In this document: positions 17,625-23,993 of the stretch, in pieces
Numbering within the stretch: position 1 is the stretch's first letter
How the letters are laid out: every line of letters begins with the position of its first letter
DNA from: a virus
IMG/VR virus record: IMGVR_UViG_3300021356_000122
Location: 1 to 28,779 of that record
Length of the DNA stretch: 28,779 nt
Direction: 5' to 3' (one strand)
Notes under the pieces: generated by a model
Seen by the model: only the letters and a program-made list of their open reading frames with translations
Database searches by the model: none
What the model was told of the DNA's origin: nothing
Translations under genes and position numbers: made by a program

Positions 17625-18755
17625 TTATAGCTCTGCCTTAAAATTCCATGAAGCATTTGGATTGTTTAGCCATCTCCAAGAAACGGTATGTCCAACGCTT
17701 ATTCCACTTGCAAAAGTAAAACTAATATGTGCATGTCTTGTGCCGCTTTCAGCTAGACTAGTACCAGTCATGTTATAACTAGCACCTGCATTATAGTTAA
17801 AATGCTGAACAGTTGATGAGCTTATGTTATTAAGTTCTAAAGTGGGAACTGCTCTCATTTCTACTGGATATTCATAAAACCATTTAGTGCCGTTAGCATC
17901 TTGAGAGTGTGTAATGTATCTTGCATAAGCACTGTCAATAGGAAAGGGATGACCTGCCCCACTTACTGCATGAAAATAGCGTTGACACCTAGCCAACTCT
18001 TCTCCAAAATTATTAATATGCTCAAACTCTGTTGGGTTCTGCCCTATTTCTAATTGAACACCTGTGAGATACCAAGTAGCACCATTTGTTCCTACTACAG
18101 AGGTTGCTCCAGTGGCAGAAAAATAATCTCCTGCTCCCCAAGCTCCTGCACTTCCACTATAGTTTGAACCAACACCTAAACCAAAACTTACCCATAGTCC
18201 AGTTTCATTAGTTGCCCCTATCCACGTTCCACTTGTATCACCACTTATAGTTATAGATTTTTTCTCCCATGTATTTGCAGAGGATATAGTATATGTAAAA
18301 GGGTAGTTTCTGTTTCTTGCATTATTTTTTAAAGCACCACCAAATGTGCCAGTCAAGCTAGAACGAACATAAAAAGATAGTGTAATTGTTTTTGCAGAGG
18401 ATGTTCCAAATTGCAGTAAAGCTGTGTTATGTCCCTCTATAAGTTGTTCAATGTTAAAAATGTTATTTGCTGCATCTGAAGTAGCCGCAGATGAAGTTAC
18501 AAGTAAAGAATGAGCAAAATTATCAGGTGTAGTTGAGGACTGTTGAACAGTAAATTTACCAGTCGTAGCACCTCCATCGTATGAGTTACCTCTAAACCTA
18601 TCAAGATTGTAACTACCATTAGTTTGAGCAAAACTACTGCCACCATTTCTTTGGTCAATAGCCATTGCACCATTGATAATCAAGTTCCTATTTACTCCAC
18701 CACCCCCTGCGTTGATGTTGCCTATAAGGTTTGCTAATTCTGCTGCTTTGCTCAT
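17625..18755 (-). CDS. Tail fibre/receptor-binding protein with carbohydrate-binding-like domain
   Basis: 376 residues. The pattern NRNLIINGAMAIDQRNGGSS, LDRFRGN, then IEQLIEGHN, AKTITLSFYVRSSLTGTFGG, TWEKKSITISGDTSGTW, TWYLTGVQLEIG and EELARCQRYF is a well-known phage fibre module resembling jelly-roll carbohydrate-binding domains. The C-terminal 110 residues form a separate beta-rich region. The N-terminus (MSKAAELANLIGNI) is a short helix with a Gly linker, probably an attachment peptide. It starts by ATGA overlap with a C1q-like gene. It likely binds surface sugar; the ligand is unknown. Confidence 0.9.
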   Translation of the reverse strand: MSKAAELANLIGNINAGGGGVNRNLIINGAMAIDQRNGGSSFAQTNGSYNLDRFRGNSYDGGATTGKFTVQQSSTTPDNFAHSLLVTSSAATSDAANNIFNIEQLIEGHNTALLQFGTSSAKTITLSFYVRSSLTGTFGGALKNNARNRNYPFTYTISSANTWEKKSITISGDTSGTWIGATNETGLWVSFGLGVGSNYSGSAGAWGAGDYFSATGATSVVGTNGATWYLTGVQLEIGQNPTEFEHINNFGEELARCQRYFHAVSGAGHPFPIDSAYARYITHSQDANGTKWFYEYPVEMRAVPTLELNNISSSTVQHFNYNAGASYNMTGTSLAESGTRHAHISFTFASGISVGHTVSWRWLNNPNASWNFKAEL

Positions 18756-19276
18756 CCTACTAAGTATCCCCAGAAATATGTGGCAGTGTCAAAATGCCAA
18801 CTCGTGTCTGATTGTGCTGTCATAGTTACTTTTAAAGTATCACTTACACTACAATTATAAATACCAGACAAAGAAACAGAGTGATAAACATTTGATATAT
18901 CATCTTCTAAATGATAATACTGCTCTAGTTTTGTTGTATCACTGTTTTTTATAATTTTCATGTTAAGATAATTTCCTGCTGTTGCACTATCTACTCTAGC
19001 AGTAGAACCAAACATATAAATACCTGCAACAGGAATTGTTATTTTATAAGTAGAGCTACTATATGTTACCCCTCCACTTAAAAAACAATTACTACCACTT
19101 GTTGTATCAAATGGAATCTCTACTGCACTAGAGGATGTTTGATTTGATTGAGCAGATAACCCTAATCTCCAAGCAGGAGTAACTCCACGAGTAACCCTAC
19201 CACTACTATCAATAGACAAAGCCGTATTAGAGTTCGTTGCGTCTTGTATGGTATTTACTTTAAGTATTGATGCCAT
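18752..19276 (-). CDS. Small adhesin: N-terminal docking peptide plus C1q/TNF-like domain
   Basis: 174 residues. The N-terminus MASILKVNTIQ...ALSIDSSGRVT is a version of the docking peptide shared with its neighbours. From about residue 35 a C1q-like jelly roll is suggested by an aromatic strand (TPAWRLGLSA), the centre TYKITIPVAGIYMFGST, 'VSLSGIYNCSVSDTLKVTM' and the ending ATYFWGYLVG. C1q-like domains trimerise and bind proteins or glycans. One of four such genes in the window, so probably an exchangeable receptor-binding part of the tail. Confidence 0.86.
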   Translation of the reverse strand: MASILKVNTIQDATNSNTALSIDSSGRVTRGVTPAWRLGLSAQSNQTSSSAVEIPFDTTSGSNCFLSGGVTYSSSTYKITIPVAGIYMFGSTARVDSATAGNYLNMKIIKNSDTTKLEQYYHLEDDISNVYHSVSLSGIYNCSVSDTLKVTMTAQSDTSWHFDTATYFWGYLVG

Positions 19277-19279
19277 TGG

Positions 19280-19753
19280 TTATCCTATTAATACTCCTGC
19301 AAAATGACTATACAGTCCATTTGTATTAAAATGTGCAGTTTCAGTGGTTGTATACATATACACTTCATCACTGGCACTTAACAAAGTCGTATAAGCAAAT
19401 GTGCCACTTCTGTAAGCAGCATTATCATCTGCTTGAAATCTAAATCTACTAACAGCATTAACTTGTAAATCTAATGCAATGTCATTCGCATTATTTGTAA
19501 AAGCTTGACCAGTAAAAAGATAAACTCCTGCTAAAGGTGCTGTAAATTTACCTGTTGACGTACTATAATGCCCTCCAATGTTATGACGTGTATTGTTCCA
19601 AACAACAATATTTCCTGCTGATACATTCCCAGAGGTTCTGTATGCTTCAAAGCTAGGTCTTGCAGGAGTGAGTATGCGTCCTGTGCTATCAATAGTCATG
19701 GCACTTGTGCCACCAGAATGTTTTATTGCATCTACATGAAGTTCACTTGCCAT
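19280..19753 (-). CDS. Small adhesin: docking peptide plus C1q/TNF-like domain
   Basis: 157 residues. The first 30 residues (MASELHVDAIKHSGGTSAMT then IDSTGRI) are the docking peptide. The domain that follows shows C1q landmarks: GGHYSTSTGKFTAPLAGVYL, a central FRFQADDN strand, YTTLLSASDEVYMYT and the ending YSHFAGVLIG. It reads as a sister of the gene at 23065-23547, with the same order of landmarks and clear local similarity in HYSTSTGKFTAP. The start shares one base with the stop of the gene upstream. Confidence 0.88.
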   Translation of the reverse strand: MASELHVDAIKHSGGTSAMTIDSTGRILTPARPSFEAYRTSGNVSAGNIVVWNNTRHNIGGHYSTSTGKFTAPLAGVYLFTGQAFTNNANDIALDLQVNAVSRFRFQADDNAAYRSGTFAYTTLLSASDEVYMYTTTETAHFNTNGLYSHFAGVLIG

Positions 19754-20298
19754 TATCCACCTATTTCAAAAACTTGCAACATTGATATTGAACGGAAGTC
19801 ATACTCATTTTCCGTTCTGTCTGGATGTGATCTATTAACGTACATAACATTACTTGATAGTCTTCCTGCCATCTGTAATTTATATGTTAATGCAGATGTC
19901 GTATTTGGCTCATCAACAATCTGAAAATTATGATCATGCACTATACCATGAGAATTACTTTGTGTTTGATCTGTGACTTTAGCAGATGCTATTCGCAGTC
20001 TACTATCTGCAGAACCATCAGCATTTGCACCTAATTCAGTTGAATCTCTTAACAACCTAACATAAGAGGTATAATAATCGGATGCTCCCCTTACAAGAAA
20101 ATTTATAAAAAACTTACTAGATGTACTTACTGGGTTCACTGTTACAGACAACCCAGTTATATCGACAAATGTAAAACCAGTCGCTGTTTGTGTATCTGTT
20201 TTTACAGCTTGAGTAACATTTATAATATGATTTGGGATATTAATACTTCCGCTCGTCGCTTTCCCCTCAATCTTATCTACTAATAATCTACTGGTCAT
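19753..20298 (-). CDS. Small tail protein, VDxIxG beta-sandwich family, member 3
   Basis: 181 residues. It starts MTSRLLVDKIEGKATSGSIN and continues INVTQAVKTDTQTATG, FVDITGLSVTVNPVSTSSKF and a C-terminal ISMLQVFEIGG. The layout matches the genes at 22097 and 22582: a 'VDxI.G' docking peptide, a 'GLSVTVNP.S.SSKF' strand pair, a 'D.PNT.SALTYKL' strand and a closing 'M.EI' strand. This is a second single-domain beta-sandwich family in the array. Function is not known; a fibre tip or decoration is inferred. It starts by ATGA overlap with the MPYIG gene. Confidence 0.85.
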   Translation of the reverse strand: MTSRLLVDKIEGKATSGSINIPNHIINVTQAVKTDTQTATGFTFVDITGLSVTVNPVSTSSKFFINFLVRGASDYYTSYVRLLRDSTELGANADGSADSRLRIASAKVTDQTQSNSHGIVHDHNFQIVDEPNTTSALTYKLQMAGRLSSNVMYVNRSHPDRTENEYDFRSISMLQVFEIGG

Positions 20299-20756
20299 AC
20301 TATTGTATACACTCCGTTAACTGTGATTGTAGCATTTGTAACTGTTATAGGTCCTGCTGACAATCCGTTTGTACCACTAGGTATTGTTATATCTGCCGTG
20401 ATACTGTTGCCGTTGGTTCTTATTATACTGTCATTTCCAAGAAAAGGATAGCGTGTATCTGACTCTGACTTGCTGTAGCTGTTGGCTATTGTAAACGCAT
20501 CGTAGGCTACAATCTCTACCACATCATTCAATGATGCTCCTGTTACTAACACCACCGTTGTACCAGAGGTAGAGGTGTAATCTGTGGCAGGTTTGAGTAA
20601 AACACCATTTTGATAGACATCTACATACTCACCATCGCTGTAGCTCAATACGTTTGCATTGGCATCTGATCCACTAAAAGATGTCTGTCCTGCTGTAGCT
20701 TGGTATATAAACCGTGTTCTAACACCTTGATTTGGTGCTTTTCCTATGTAGGGCAT
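20295..20756 (-). CDS. MPYIG-type tail-fibre N-terminal/adaptor protein
   Basis: 153 residues. MPYIGKAPNQGVRTRFIYQA, TAGQTSFSGSDANANVLSY, DGEYVDVYQNGVLLKPATDY and VEIVAYDAFTIANSYSKSES are the hallmark start of many cyanophage and pelagiphage fibres, where it is thought to join the fibre to the tail. Here it ends after only a short shaft (ITADITIPSG, ITVNGVYTIV), so it is either a compact fibre or an adaptor onto which separate tips assemble. The 23544-23993 gene shares the MPYIG start and a similar last strand. Confidence 0.9.
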   Translation of the reverse strand: MPYIGKAPNQGVRTRFIYQATAGQTSFSGSDANANVLSYSDGEYVDVYQNGVLLKPATDYTSTSGTTVVLVTGASLNDVVEIVAYDAFTIANSYSKSESDTRYPFLGNDSIIRTNGNSITADITIPSGTNGLSAGPITVTNATITVNGVYTIV

Positions 20757-20760
20757 ATTT

Positions 20761-21039
20761 TTATCCTATACTATTAGCGTCATCTCTTGCTTTTCGGTTC
20801 TGATAGTCAGACCTTGCTAACACAAGAGCCACAAAGTCGGCTTGGTTGCTTGGGATTGGGTCAGTGAAAGAACTATCGTTCATTAACTTTGTAGTCCATT
20901 CCTGTTGCATCCTCTTCCAACAATTGTTTATTTTTCCTGTCATTGCGTCTTGCACCCATTGATTAATGTCAACCAAATCATTATTTAATATAGCTTGTTG
21001 GGTATCATCGACTTCTATTGTTAGTGTAAGTTTTGCCAT
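20761..21039 (-). CDS. Small conserved phage protein in the fibre array
   Basis: 92 residues: MAKLTLTIEVDDTQQAILNN, then DLVDINQWVQDAMTGKINNC, WKRMQQEWTTKLMND and a C-terminal helix DFVALVLARSDYQNRKARD. Unlike its neighbours it is mostly helical after one beta strand. I recall relatives between fibre genes of marine phages. The mix of 'IEVDD...I..DLVDI..WV..A..GK' and a Trp-rich helix hints at an assembly factor or chaperone, but no function is known. The next gene begins 4 bases after it. Confidence 0.83.
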   Translation of the reverse strand: MAKLTLTIEVDDTQQAILNNDLVDINQWVQDAMTGKINNCWKRMQQEWTTKLMNDSSFTDPIPSNQADFVALVLARSDYQNRKARDDANSIG

Positions 21040-21056
21040 TTATTTTTTCCTCTTTT

Positions 21057-21677
21057 TTAACAAACTAAATAGCCACTGAAATGGCTTGCCTGTTTAATGT
21101 CAGCTTGAGTTGTACCCACATATTGCGTAAATTCTAAATGTGCCGTGTCATTTGCATCCATGTCTATTAAAACACTTAATGCAAAATTCCAATATACTGG
21201 GTCTCCACTAAGACCTCTCAAATCATTTATTTGAGAAGTTAAATCACGATTAGAAACTCTTAGTATTACACGAGTAAAAGTTGCGTCTGAGTCAACATTG
21301 TCTATCCTTACAGAAAAACTTAAATTATATTTGCCAGTAACAGGTGCAGTAAAAGTGTTAGACGAAAAATCACCATTTTGGTCAAATCTTTCTTCATCAA
21401 AAACTATTGTATCCGCATTTGCAATATTTGTTTGGTCTGCGGATGGTTTGACATGAAAAGCAGATTGCAAAGGCTTAGTAATGTGACCATTAGCATCAAT
21501 AATCATATGTGATGTAGTGCCTAGTGTAGAGCCTAGACCTATTGTAAGGCTGTCTGCACTATCATCCAGTCCTATGTGAAAGTCCTGTGCATTACCATCA
21601 AATATAATAGAATTATCAGATGCTGTACCATCTCCTAATGTACCTAATCCTTTACCTCTAACTTTAGTTAACGCCAC
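21057..21677 (-). CDS. Fibre protein with shaft repeat and C1q/TNF-like tip
   Basis: 206 residues. The first 65 residues (MALTKVRGKGLGTLGDGTAS, IIFDGNAQDFHIGLDDSADS, MIIDANGHI) are a short shaft of the kind used in marine-phage fibres. From about 70 a C1q-like domain follows: PLQSAFHVKPSA, FSSNTFTAPVTGKYNLSFSV, VLIDMDANDTAHLEF and the ending ASHFSGYLVC. The match to the C1q pattern (F-x-x-P-x-x-G-x-Y-x-x-x-F, D/N-D near the end, closing F-x-G-x-L) is good. Longest of the four C1q-like genes. Confidence 0.87.
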   Translation of the reverse strand: MALTKVRGKGLGTLGDGTASDNSIIFDGNAQDFHIGLDDSADSLTIGLGSTLGTTSHMIIDANGHITKPLQSAFHVKPSADQTNIANADTIVFDEERFDQNGDFSSNTFTAPVTGKYNLSFSVRIDNVDSDATFTRVILRVSNRDLTSQINDLRGLSGDPVYWNFALSVLIDMDANDTAHLEFTQYVGTTQADIKQASHFSGYLVC

Positions 21678-21686
21678 TTCTTACTC

Positions 21687-22100
21687 CTAGCTTGGTTTTG
21701 TTGGAAAGGTTACACTGCTCATGTCTAGTGTTCCATCACTGTTTAGCGTTGGTGTTGAATTAGCAGGTAAATCTCTCAAGGCTTGTCTATATGTTGCCCA
21801 ATCACTTGACATAGTGACATCGCTGTTACCCATCCAATCTGTTTCTGCCAGTAATCTGTCTCGTTCTACACGAAGCAATCGCATCGGCTCACGGCTTTGC
21901 AGTAGCGTCTTTTCACCTGCTACCTGTGCGTATGTTACACCCCAATCACTTGGGTCTGCACTTTCGATTGCTGAACCATTTGCATCTGCTCCAGTAACCT
22001 TACGAAACATCTGGTTAAACTCTTCTTCATTTGTAGGCTCTCCTCTAAGAACCCACTCTGTAACTCCTAAACTCGATAATGCTTGTGCTATTGTTGTCAT
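21687..22100 (-). CDS. Tail-fibre assembly chaperone-like protein
   Basis: 137 residues. The C-terminal half holds EPMRLLRVERDRLLAETDWM followed by SSDWATYRQALRDLPAN, the usual 'R..RD.LL..tDW...D......W..YRQ.LRDLP' core of phage tail-assembly chaperones (Phage_tail_APC type). The N-terminal half (MTTIAQALSSLGVTEWVLRG, EEEFNQMFRKVTG) is less typical. Its place inside the fibre array suggests that it folds or trimerises the neighbouring adhesins. It overlaps the upstream gene by ATGA. The role is inferred from the motif; which fibre it serves is unknown. Confidence 0.85.
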   Translation of the reverse strand: MTTIAQALSSLGVTEWVLRGEPTNEEEFNQMFRKVTGADANGSAIESADPSDWGVTYAQVAGEKTLLQSREPMRLLRVERDRLLAETDWMGNSDVTMSSDWATYRQALRDLPANSTPTLNSDGTLDMSSVTFPTKPS

Positions 22101-22585
22101 TGTTTTATCTCCATTGCTGTGATCGTGCTGTTTGTAGTGTTATTTCCTCCAAGAGCGTAGTTGTTAAATCCTATTGATGAACTATTTGCACTCGATCTAT
22201 AATATACTGAATATGTAGTTGCACTCGTAGTTGAAGGAGAATCAAGAAATTGATGAGCAAGACTTTCAGAAACTACAGTTTGATTTTGTCCTTGAGCTGA
22301 TGAAATATGATTTAAAAACGAAGTTCCTTTATACAACTGGTATATGCCGTAAGTTGCTGAATCAACTGTATACAAACCATTAATTGATATCGAAATTAAA
22401 ACTTTACTACTGCTAAACTTAGGAGTAATAGATACAGATAATCCAGTAGAAGTAAGAGTATCACTATTCATTGGTGACCAAGCACTTACTTGGCTTGATT
22501 GAACTTGCACAACCATACCTGCTGGCATAGCCACAGTTCCTGCTGTTGTCTTACCCTGTATTGTGTCTACTGATAGTGTACTCAT
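22097..22585 (-). CDS. Small tail protein, VDxIxG beta-sandwich family, member 2
   Basis: 162 residues. MSTLSVDTIQGKTTAGTVAM is the docking peptide; then VVQVQSSQVSAW, TLTSTGLSVSITPKFSSSKV, an ALxHQFLDSPSTTSATTY strand and the closing STITAMEIKQ. It shares this order with the upstream neighbour and with the gene at 19753. The family resembles phage fibre-tip modules I have seen in uncultured marine phages; no structure is known to me. Starts by ATGA overlap. Confidence 0.86.
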   Translation of the reverse strand: MSTLSVDTIQGKTTAGTVAMPAGMVVQVQSSQVSAWSPMNSDTLTSTGLSVSITPKFSSSKVLISISINGLYTVDSATYGIYQLYKGTSFLNHISSAQGQNQTVVSESLAHQFLDSPSTTSATTYSVYYRSSANSSSIGFNNYALGGNNTTNSTITAMEIKQ

Positions 22586-23061
22586 TGGGCAATCTCCATT
22601 AGAGTTATCGAAGAACCTCCATTATTATTGATGATGACAGAGCAATTTGAATCTAGTGATTTAATATGGACAGTATATGTTGTTGCACTTGAAGTGTTTG
22701 GACTGTCTAAAACTTTTAATATTGCACCAGTTGCTACATTGTCTGTGTTTCCAGTTCCTGCTAATTCTCTTGTTCCGTGATCAATAAATTGACCAATGGC
22801 TGTGCTACCTCTGTGAATTTGTGCTACAACATGACCACCATTTGATGTTCCAGTAGTTTGTCTTAACTGACACTGACAAATAACAAGAATTTTACTTGTG
22901 GCAGATTGGGGTGTAATTGTTGCTGTTACACTGGTTGAAACAAAAGATGTTGATGATGATGTTTGGCTTGTATCATTTTCAGCATTAACAACCTGCACCA
23001 CATACCTATTTGTGCCATCTGCTGTCTGTCCTCTTATGCTGTCTACTCTTAATGTACTCAT
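22582..23061 (-). CDS. Small tail protein, VDxIxG beta-sandwich family, member 1
   Basis: 159 residues. MSTLRVDSIRGQTADGTNRY, VVQVVNAENDTS, FVSTSVTATITPQSATSKIL, then KVLDSPNTSSATTYTVHI and the closing SITLMEIAQ. The 'GQTADGTNRY' start recurs in marine-phage fibre proteins. Like its two sisters it is a docking peptide plus one beta sandwich. A tail-fibre tip role is inferred from the neighbourhood. Begins 3 bases after the C1q-like gene upstream. Confidence 0.86.
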   Translation of the reverse strand: MSTLRVDSIRGQTADGTNRYVVQVVNAENDTSQTSSSTSFVSTSVTATITPQSATSKILVICQCQLRQTTGTSNGGHVVAQIHRGSTAIGQFIDHGTRELAGTGNTDNVATGAILKVLDSPNTSSATTYTVHIKSLDSNCSVIINNNGGSSITLMEIAQ

Positions 23062-23064
23062 TGT

Positions 23065-23547
23065 TTATCCTATTAAAAACCCAGAGAAGTGGGTGTAGTT
23101 AGATGTTGCCGCTGATGTTCCATAAACAGAAGCAGTAACAGCAACAACTTGCACATAATCATTAGCAGAAAGAGAAGCCACTGTAGAAAAACTTGACGAA
23201 AAATCATTATCTAAATAAGTATAGCCTTGAGAAACAGCATAAGATGTGCCGTTTATATGAATTTCAGAACGAAAATAACTATCAGTCCCATCATGATCGG
23301 ACATCACATTAGTAGAAAAACTATAGACACCTGCTACTGGAGCAGTAAATTTTCCAGTGCTTGTATCGTAATGTGAACCTTGATTAACAACAGCCGTATC
23401 AAATATAATCACTCCTGTAGCTTGATTAGACGTTCTTCTTGCCATAAAAGCAGGAACTTGTGGTAATGTTACACGACCAGAGCTATCAATAGTCTGAGCC
23501 GTAGTACCATTGGTGTGCTTTATATTCTGTACTAGAAGGTTGCTCAT
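23065..23547 (-). CDS. Small adhesin: docking peptide plus C1q/TNF-like domain
   Basis: 160 residues. MSNLLVQNIKHTNGTTAQTI then DSSGRVTL form the docking peptide. The domain from about residue 30 has C1q landmarks: VPAFMARRTSNQ, GSHYDTSTGKFTAPVAGVYS, SFSTVASLSANDYVQVVAV and the ending YTHFSGFLIG. This is the clearest C1q-like member of the array and the closest sister of 19280-19753. Expected to trimerise at the tail tip; the ligand is unknown. Starts by ATGA overlap with the MPYIG gene. Confidence 0.9.
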   Translation of the reverse strand: MSNLLVQNIKHTNGTTAQTIDSSGRVTLPQVPAFMARRTSNQATGVIIFDTAVVNQGSHYDTSTGKFTAPVAGVYSFSTNVMSDHDGTDSYFRSEIHINGTSYAVSQGYTYLDNDFSSSFSTVASLSANDYVQVVAVTASVYGTSAATSNYTHFSGFLIG

Positions 23548-23993
23548 ATGATTGCTAGATTACCTCCTGAGTTTACTGTGATGGTTACACCTGAAGATAC
23601 TGTCAAAGGTCCTGTAGCTGTAGCATTCTCTGTTGCTTCAATCGTTGTATCTACATCTACAGTCTGTGAATTAACTCTAAACATACCACCATTCTTGAAG
23701 TTACCTTTGTTCTGTGTTGGTATCGTAATACTTGTATCTGTCGCACCAAGATAAATTACAAAGATATTACCTGTTCCACTTGATGGAGCTTCTGTAAATG
23801 TAAGGTTAGTGCCATTTGGCACTGTAAATGCGTCTACACTCTCCTGTATTACACCGTCAACGCTCACTACGATATCCTCTTGAGCTACTGTCTGGTTTAG
23901 CGTAAAGACCGTTGTGGAGCCATCTCCGTTGAACTCCTGCGTTGCAGGTCTTGATGAAAAACTAGAACCAACTTGGCTTCCTATGTATGGCAT
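23544..23993 (-). CDS. MPYIG-type short tail-fibre protein
   Basis: 149 residues. It starts MPYIGSQVGSSFSSRPATQE, then a beta domain FNGDGSTTVFTLNQTVAQED, IVVSVDGVIQESVDAFTV, GNIFVIYLGATDTSI and a C-terminal shaft MFRVNSQTVDVDTTIEATEN ending ATATGPLTVSSGVTITVNSG. This order (MPYIG start, 'VFTL...V....I.V.VDGV.Q' domain, 'SQ.VD.DTTI.A..NA...GPL' end) is common in cyanophage fibres. It probably attaches fibre tips to the tail. The start shares one base with the preceding stop. Confidence 0.88.
   Translation of the reverse strand: MPYIGSQVGSSFSSRPATQEFNGDGSTTVFTLNQTVAQEDIVVSVDGVIQESVDAFTVPNGTNLTFTEAPSSGTGNIFVIYLGATDTSITIPTQNKGNFKNGGMFRVNSQTVDVDTTIEATENATATGPLTVSSGVTITVNSGGNLAII

Follow-up and report, generated by a model that had tools for sequence, protein, structure and literature searches.

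We propose that a set of tail-tip genes in a marine podophage encodes short N-terminal address tags, each particular to one gene position or slot, and that these tags probably fix exchangeable TNF/C1q-like heads to hub fibres. The window analysed is the whole of IMG/VR virus record IMGVR_UViG_3300021356_000122 (positions 1 to 28,779; 28,779 nucleotides). Its closest annotated isolate at the DNA level is Puniceispirillum phage HMO-2011, and the window phage is an HMO-2011-like marine podophage. As we see it, the locus would be a receptor-binding cassette composed of two hub fibres, the MPYIG proteins, and a set of tips. A tip gene would consist of an N-terminal address tag of ~15–18 residues, a short linker, and a TNF/C1q-like head. 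At the distal end of the hub, each slot-private tag would hold its head on a site of its own. The head would recognize the host, and it would be swapped between phages and between slots by recombination over the stretch that starts at the linker and ends with the stop codon, the local tag staying in place throughout.

All of the genes concerned lie on the minus strand. Hub A, an MPYIG protein of 149 amino acids (aa), occupies 23544..23993 and is followed by slots 1 to 3. The slot 1 tip (23065..23547) joins the tag MSNLLVQNIKHTNGTTAQ, codons 1–18 of which are 23547..23494, to a C1q head (6.5e-18). Slot 2 (22582..23061) joins MSTLRVDSIRGQTADGT, from 23061 downwards, to a SITP (TNF-like) head, and slot 3 (22097..22585) joins MSTLSVDTIQGKTTAGTV, from 22585 downwards, to another SITP head. 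Hub B, an MPYIG protein of 153 aa (20295..20756), is followed by slot 4 (19753..20298; MTSRLLVDKIEGKATSGS from 20298 downwards; SITP head; PHROG tail fibre, 6.2e-14), slot 5 (19280..19753; MASELHVDAIKHSGGTSA from 19753 downwards; C1q head, of C1q fold), and slot 6 (18752..19276; MASILKVNTIQDATNSNT from 19276 downwards; C1q/TNF-like head). The initial annotation had pointed out that these six genes begin alike, and the starts are indeed MASILKVNTI (18752), MASELHVDAI (19280), MTSRLLVDKI (19753), MSTLSVDTI (22097), MSTLRVDSI (22582), and MSNLLVQNI (23065). The extension A(L/M/Q)(S/T)IDS(S/T)GR(V/I) that it reported is likewise present in three of them (18752, 19280, and 23065).

For comparison, genes were chosen by position and not by motif: those standing first, second, or third behind an MPYIG hub were taken from 153 non-redundant loci. 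A minimum of 9 identical residues out of the first 12, relative to the window gene of the slot, is reached in 51/52, 36/43, 37/43, 46/70, 44/64, and 38/55 genes for slots 1–6, respectively; among the genes falling short, the exceptions inspected are mostly other lineages with other tags. In the genes passing this threshold, pairwise identity over the tag (residues 2–18) is 0.93, 0.75, 0.93, 0.83, 0.98, and 0.93, versus 0.20, 0.28, 0.26, 0.24, 0.18, and 0.20 over the body (residue 35 onward); the threshold inflates the tag values, and the medians without it are still 10 to 12 of 12. The start thus exceeds the domain in conservation by a wide margin (0.75–0.98 versus 0.18–0.28), contrary to what would be seen were the start kept no better than the domains. 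The pattern ^M[AST].{1,2}L.V..I opens 347/913 tip genes versus 20/2692 other genes of the fetched loci, a contrast between tip and other genes of the same phages, as many of the loci were fetched through genes of this type. A tag profile gave 364 matches near the starts of open reading frames and none to reversed decoys. It gave one very weak internal match in the fetched loci, and the tag was accordingly rejected as a repeat within long fibres.

The tags are constant under purifying selection, with slot 2 as the exception. Over codons 2–13, synonymous differences per codon are 0.28, 0.03, 0.23, 0.22, 0.12, and 0.11 for slots 1–6, and amino-acid differences are 0.007, 0.175, 0.014, 0.048, 0.027, and 0.043. 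Recent descent or a constraint on the DNA is ruled out as the source of constancy in slots 1 and 3–6 by this synonymous change. Tag similarity also follows that of the hub, with r of 0.61, 0.55, and 0.59 in slots 4–6, versus 0.25, 0.10, and 0.25 for the bodies; in slot 2, the values are 0.47 (tag) and 0.27 (body). As to likeness between the tags of the two hubs, slots 1 and 5 (14/21) and slots 3 and 4 (14/20) stand out, the other pairs reaching at most 8. A separate observation concerns the start of slot 2 (window 22582–23061), where codons 2–6 (AGT ACA TTA AGA GTA) are identical in DNA in 36/36 tagged relatives, unlike in the other slots, and the later tag residues vary.

The heads behind the tags were sorted by profile into three families, namely C1q, SITP, which ends in EIAQ, and GDLA. 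The initial annotation had spoken of two unrelated families. Their lack of sequence relation holds, since hhalign finds no homology among the three profiles (probability below 1%); the C1q and SITP folds, however, are both predicted to be TNF/C1q-like jelly rolls, and GDLA, found behind the same tags, is a third family. Among tagged relatives, slot 5 carries 23 C1q, 20 SITP, and 1 other head, slot 1 carries 45 C1q, 5 GDLA, and 1 other, and slot 6 carries 33 C1q, 2 GDLA, and 3 others, with SITP in 36/36 for slot 2. As non-homologous heads stand behind one tag, the constancy of a tag is not due to the head that follows it.

Heads also move between slots, in direct support of the initial annotation where it held that tips could be exchanged. 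Among genes carrying the tag of their own slot, a choice that in part presupposes retention of the local tag, 10 cross-slot head pairs have at least 90% amino-acid identity and 22 have at least 80%; one head is found behind two different tags. DNA alignments of ten such pairs have sharp breakpoints: identity is ~50% over the tag, 70–100% from the linker on, and drops at the stop codon. The unit of exchange is the linker plus head and not the whole gene. Neighbouring tip genes abut or overlap at window positions 19276, 19753, 22585, and 23061, and the 3′ ends of the heads (..GGATAA before ATG, or ATGGAGAT..CAATGA) look as though they contain a ribosome-binding site for the gene that follows; a swapped head would then seem to bring this site along.

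In AlphaFold2 monomers, modelled with alignments built from window and locus proteins, the heads are confident and residues 1–20 are poorly modelled, with block scores of 54–63 in the predicted local distance difference test (pLDDT); in slot 3 (22097), the tag scores 54–62 and the head mostly >90. The C1q head model of 19280 matches C1QL3 (E = 3.4e-11; template modelling (TM) scores 0.74/0.88) and other C1q domains, and the SITP head model of 22097 matches TNF-like proteins, namely the Chlamydia Pgp3 C-terminal domain, PLTL lectin, and BC2L-C (E of 7e-6 to 4e-4; TM about 0.4–0.7). By sequence, the SITP profile further matches a 658-residue phage protein over its final 160 residues; this SITP-ended protein is in PDB 9efk, an entry with 18 chains of it. 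On these models, the C1q and SITP families probably belong to one fold class, and this may be why one can replace the other. Hub B units have a C1q head in slot 5 in 18 cases and a SITP head in 16, with no change of class in the neighbouring slots. On this ground, we rejected the idea that the heads must form a heterotrimer; they do not seem to be packed against each other.

Hubs and tips form recurrent units. In 176 uncut runs from 299 loci, the number of tips directly after a hub is three in 89, one in 32, two in 30, four in 10, and zero in 15, and three is the commonest number in both HMO-like and P-SSP7-like phages. The HMO-like units read slots 1-2-3 in 32 cases, slot 1 alone in 19, and slots 4-5-6 in 31; six read otherwise, with one or two tags, and none of the counted units contains a duplicate tag. 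As units with slot 1 alone exist, slots 2 and 3 are not required for that slot, at least, to work. Phages HTVC115P and HMO-2011 have three tips per hub too, with intervening genes in HMO-2011. In P-SSP7, gp17 is followed by three tips of unlike tag classes, and relatives add a second hub of 106 residues and three more tips. Of 18 loci of P-SSP7-like cyanopodoviruses with five or more tips, 15 contain every one of six tag classes once, these classes having been set after the list had been read; the other three lack one class, and two of them stop at a contig end. The rule of one of each holds despite a scrambled order, as in loci L372 and L385. Here too the starts are the more constant part, with identities of 0.60–0.89 over residues 2–18 and 0.26–0.36 over the bodies.

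To what would the tags attach? Both kinds of hub have a GP(I/L)T motif close to the C-terminus, GPLTV..TITV in hub A and GPITVTNATITV, kept across relatives, in hub B. The N-terminus of hub A is weakly like that of T7 fibres (Pfam PF03906, E = 8.8e-5, under the curated cut-off; PHROG tail fibre, 1.8e-22); hub B has no PF03906 match and a PHROG tail fibre match of 3.7e-8. The gp17 of P-SSP7 matches PF03906 clearly (6.6e-15) and also matches the fibre of P-SCSP1u, of which the resolved part is the N-terminus only. In P-SCSP1u, six fibre trimers dock by their N-termini between nozzle and adaptor, the distal parts not being resolved (PMC10575957). A search for a solved hub structure with the hub profile gave weak, uninformative matches. 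Ten proteins join a hub-type N-terminus directly to a C1q or GDLA head, a layout that puts the heads at the distal end of hub fibres. In Melnitz, a Methylophilales myophage (Kyanoviridae), tagged tips adjoin a small GPLTI-motif protein and a chaperone. The two virion types have the motif protein in common and not a podophage nozzle, and the sockets would therefore lie on the hub. Unit structure and hub-head fusions favour the MPYIG hubs over a direct link to the nozzle, and we infer that attachment is by the tag, that the C-terminal part of the hub is its partner, and that the heads bind receptors. The IDSSGR stretch was rejected as part of a plug: it is absent from slots 2–4, and in a hub fusion that has no tag a close variant, ALVIDEGGRILT, stands before the C1q head.

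Several points weigh against tags that address heads to hubs. Docking on the hub is deduced from synteny and fusions, and the GPLTI protein of Melnitz is without the MPYIG N-terminus. Three tips per hub is the mode (89/176) and not a law, and since the loci are related, it is to be read as a tendency rather than a statistic. The slot 2 tag seldom varies synonymously (0.03) and varies more in amino acid (0.175), so that a constraint at the DNA level on its start is possible. In slots 1 and 3, where the tags barely vary, the tag–hub correlation is not significant.

The initial annotation had explained the similar starts as a common plug for one tail socket, for which all tags would compete. The core LxVxxI, present in all six tags, speaks for such a socket. 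It would, however, predict interchangeable tags, and private tags kept during head exchange fit it poorly: each unit has one gene per tag, without duplicates, which makes the sockets look distinct; local tags stay while heads move, which argues for non-equivalent sites; and P-SSP7 units place three unlike tag classes behind one hub. We regard a shared socket as very unlikely; the data are better fitted by a hub with three distinct sites, or by tags that form a heterotrimer. Slot-private tags are also what would be had if they served homotypic sorting, keeping the chains of one slot together so that similar TNF-like trimers do not mix, with tail attachment elsewhere. The C1q/TNF fold is trimeric, and many such heads are made in one cell. 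But the tag, modelled as a monomer only, has no confident structure in AlphaFold2, its similarity follows the hub in slots 4–6, and the heads have no other evident constant part for attachment, all of which makes sorting improbable.

It has also to be asked whether the tags act as signals that the tail-fibre chaperone of the unit recognizes. In the window as in HMO-2011, HTVC115P, and Melnitz, the unit does include a PF16778 chaperone; a single chaperone, however, would have no need of six to eight different tags, and we give this idea little credence. Barely credible, in our judgement, is that the starts are kept for reasons of DNA or translation, as a recombination seed or for ribosome binding, and not for the protein. 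The identical slot 2 codons 2–6 in 36/36 genes would suit it, but the codons of slots 1 and 3–6 often change synonymously and seldom in amino acid, and the exchange breakpoints lie after the tag and not inside it. Returning to slot-specific address tags, we add a tentative suggestion, to which we would give less than even weight. A hub fibre may have at its end three sockets that are not equivalent, or the three tags joined as a heterotrimer, and so display three unlike receptor-binding heads simultaneously; the tags would then be an addressing code under which heads exchange freely and the set still holds one of each.

Two further slots in the window locus carry other conserved tags. Slot 7 (21057..21677; GTG start; C1q head, 5.4e-9) has the tag (V/M)ALTKVRGKGLG, with identities of 0.61 (tag) and 0.18 (body) and heads of several kinds in 42 relatives. 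Slot 8 (17625..18755; PHROG tail fibre, 8.5e-49) joins MSKAAELANLIG to a long head resembling tail-fibre C-termini; among 43 relatives the values are 0.77 and 0.37, and C1q, SITP, or GDLA heads also occur there. Genes 19280, 23065, and 21057 are over the curated cut-off of Pfam PF00386 (C1q), gene 18752 is a weak TNF/C1q match (PF00386, 15.3 bits versus a cut-off of 23.7), and a Pfam search gives nothing for 22097 and 22582. The tail-fibre assembly chaperone lies at 21687..22100 (PF16778 Phage_tail_APC, E = 3.6e-13; 49.6 bits versus a curated cut-off of 26.6). Between hub B and slot 7 lies a protein of 92 aa (20761..21039), for which a Pfam search gave no match; by its position, it is perhaps a second chaperone.

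The chaperone's place in other phages is occupied in P-SSP7 by P-SSP7_040 (L361, 6794–7084), and elsewhere by similar genes of ~94–107 aa after the tips; a Pfam search with P-SSP7_040 gave no match. The same head families occur behind other starts (MSKLAVG.., RPGVC.., INASTSGG..) in L230, L253, L270, L276, L299, and other loci, and more tag families probably exist. In Pelagibacter phage HTVC115P (L362), the gene at 511–960, close to tail genes, is annotated as a toxin-activating lysine-acyltransferase. Limnohabitans phage DC33 (L363; 39 kb), with tail-type genes, is recorded as Inoviridae, a classification that looks wrong.

The principle of an anchor plus a head is already known from modular receptor-binding proteins (RBPs) such as T7 gp17 and Klebsiella phage RBPs. 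As the available accounts describe them, these have a constant virion-bound N-terminus and an exchangeable host-recognition C-terminus. Likewise, the tip genes have an N-terminus far more conserved than the C-terminus, with domain exchange, and the hub A N-terminus is, at a score under the Pfam cut-off, weakly T7-fibre-like. Unlike in those accounts, a tag of ~15–18 residues, not confidently folded as a monomer, takes the place of an anchor domain, and there are six to eight tips per genome, each with its own tag. Metaviromic islands of marine phages have been reported in which C1q-like head genes and fibre ends form a variable recognition module; a short N-terminal tag, a slot rule, and inter-slot exchange are not described in the available part of that report (PMC3909814). 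Pam3 gp24 similarly has a TNF-like distal domain, a Tfa-type chaperone (gp25), and an N-terminus that docks to the virion, as the tags are presumed to do; it is, however, one fibre with an alpha-helical N-terminal docking bundle, as opposed to several short-tagged tips on separate hubs (PMC9608196). Another comparable system is Prochlorococcus phage P-SSP7, with its T7-type fibre hub gp17, a GPITI motif near the C-terminus, and then three short tip (tail fibre) genes; it differs in its tags (MPITLNGSG.., MSQLKL.., MATLNATNL..) and in the second hub and three more tips of its relatives. No description of slot-private tags or of a one-of-each rule was found in the openly licensed literature searched.

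Variation in marine phages peaks in the recognition genes, and the organization found here is one of constant private tags, exchangeable heads, and a fixed set per hub. It would explain how non-homologous domains can replace one another without breaking assembly, and many short “hypothetical” genes can be annotated as tips from their first 20 residues. The predictions are testable in the laboratory phage P-SSP7 on Prochlorococcus MED4. Constant tags and exchanged heads together point to a plug-in system for changing host range.
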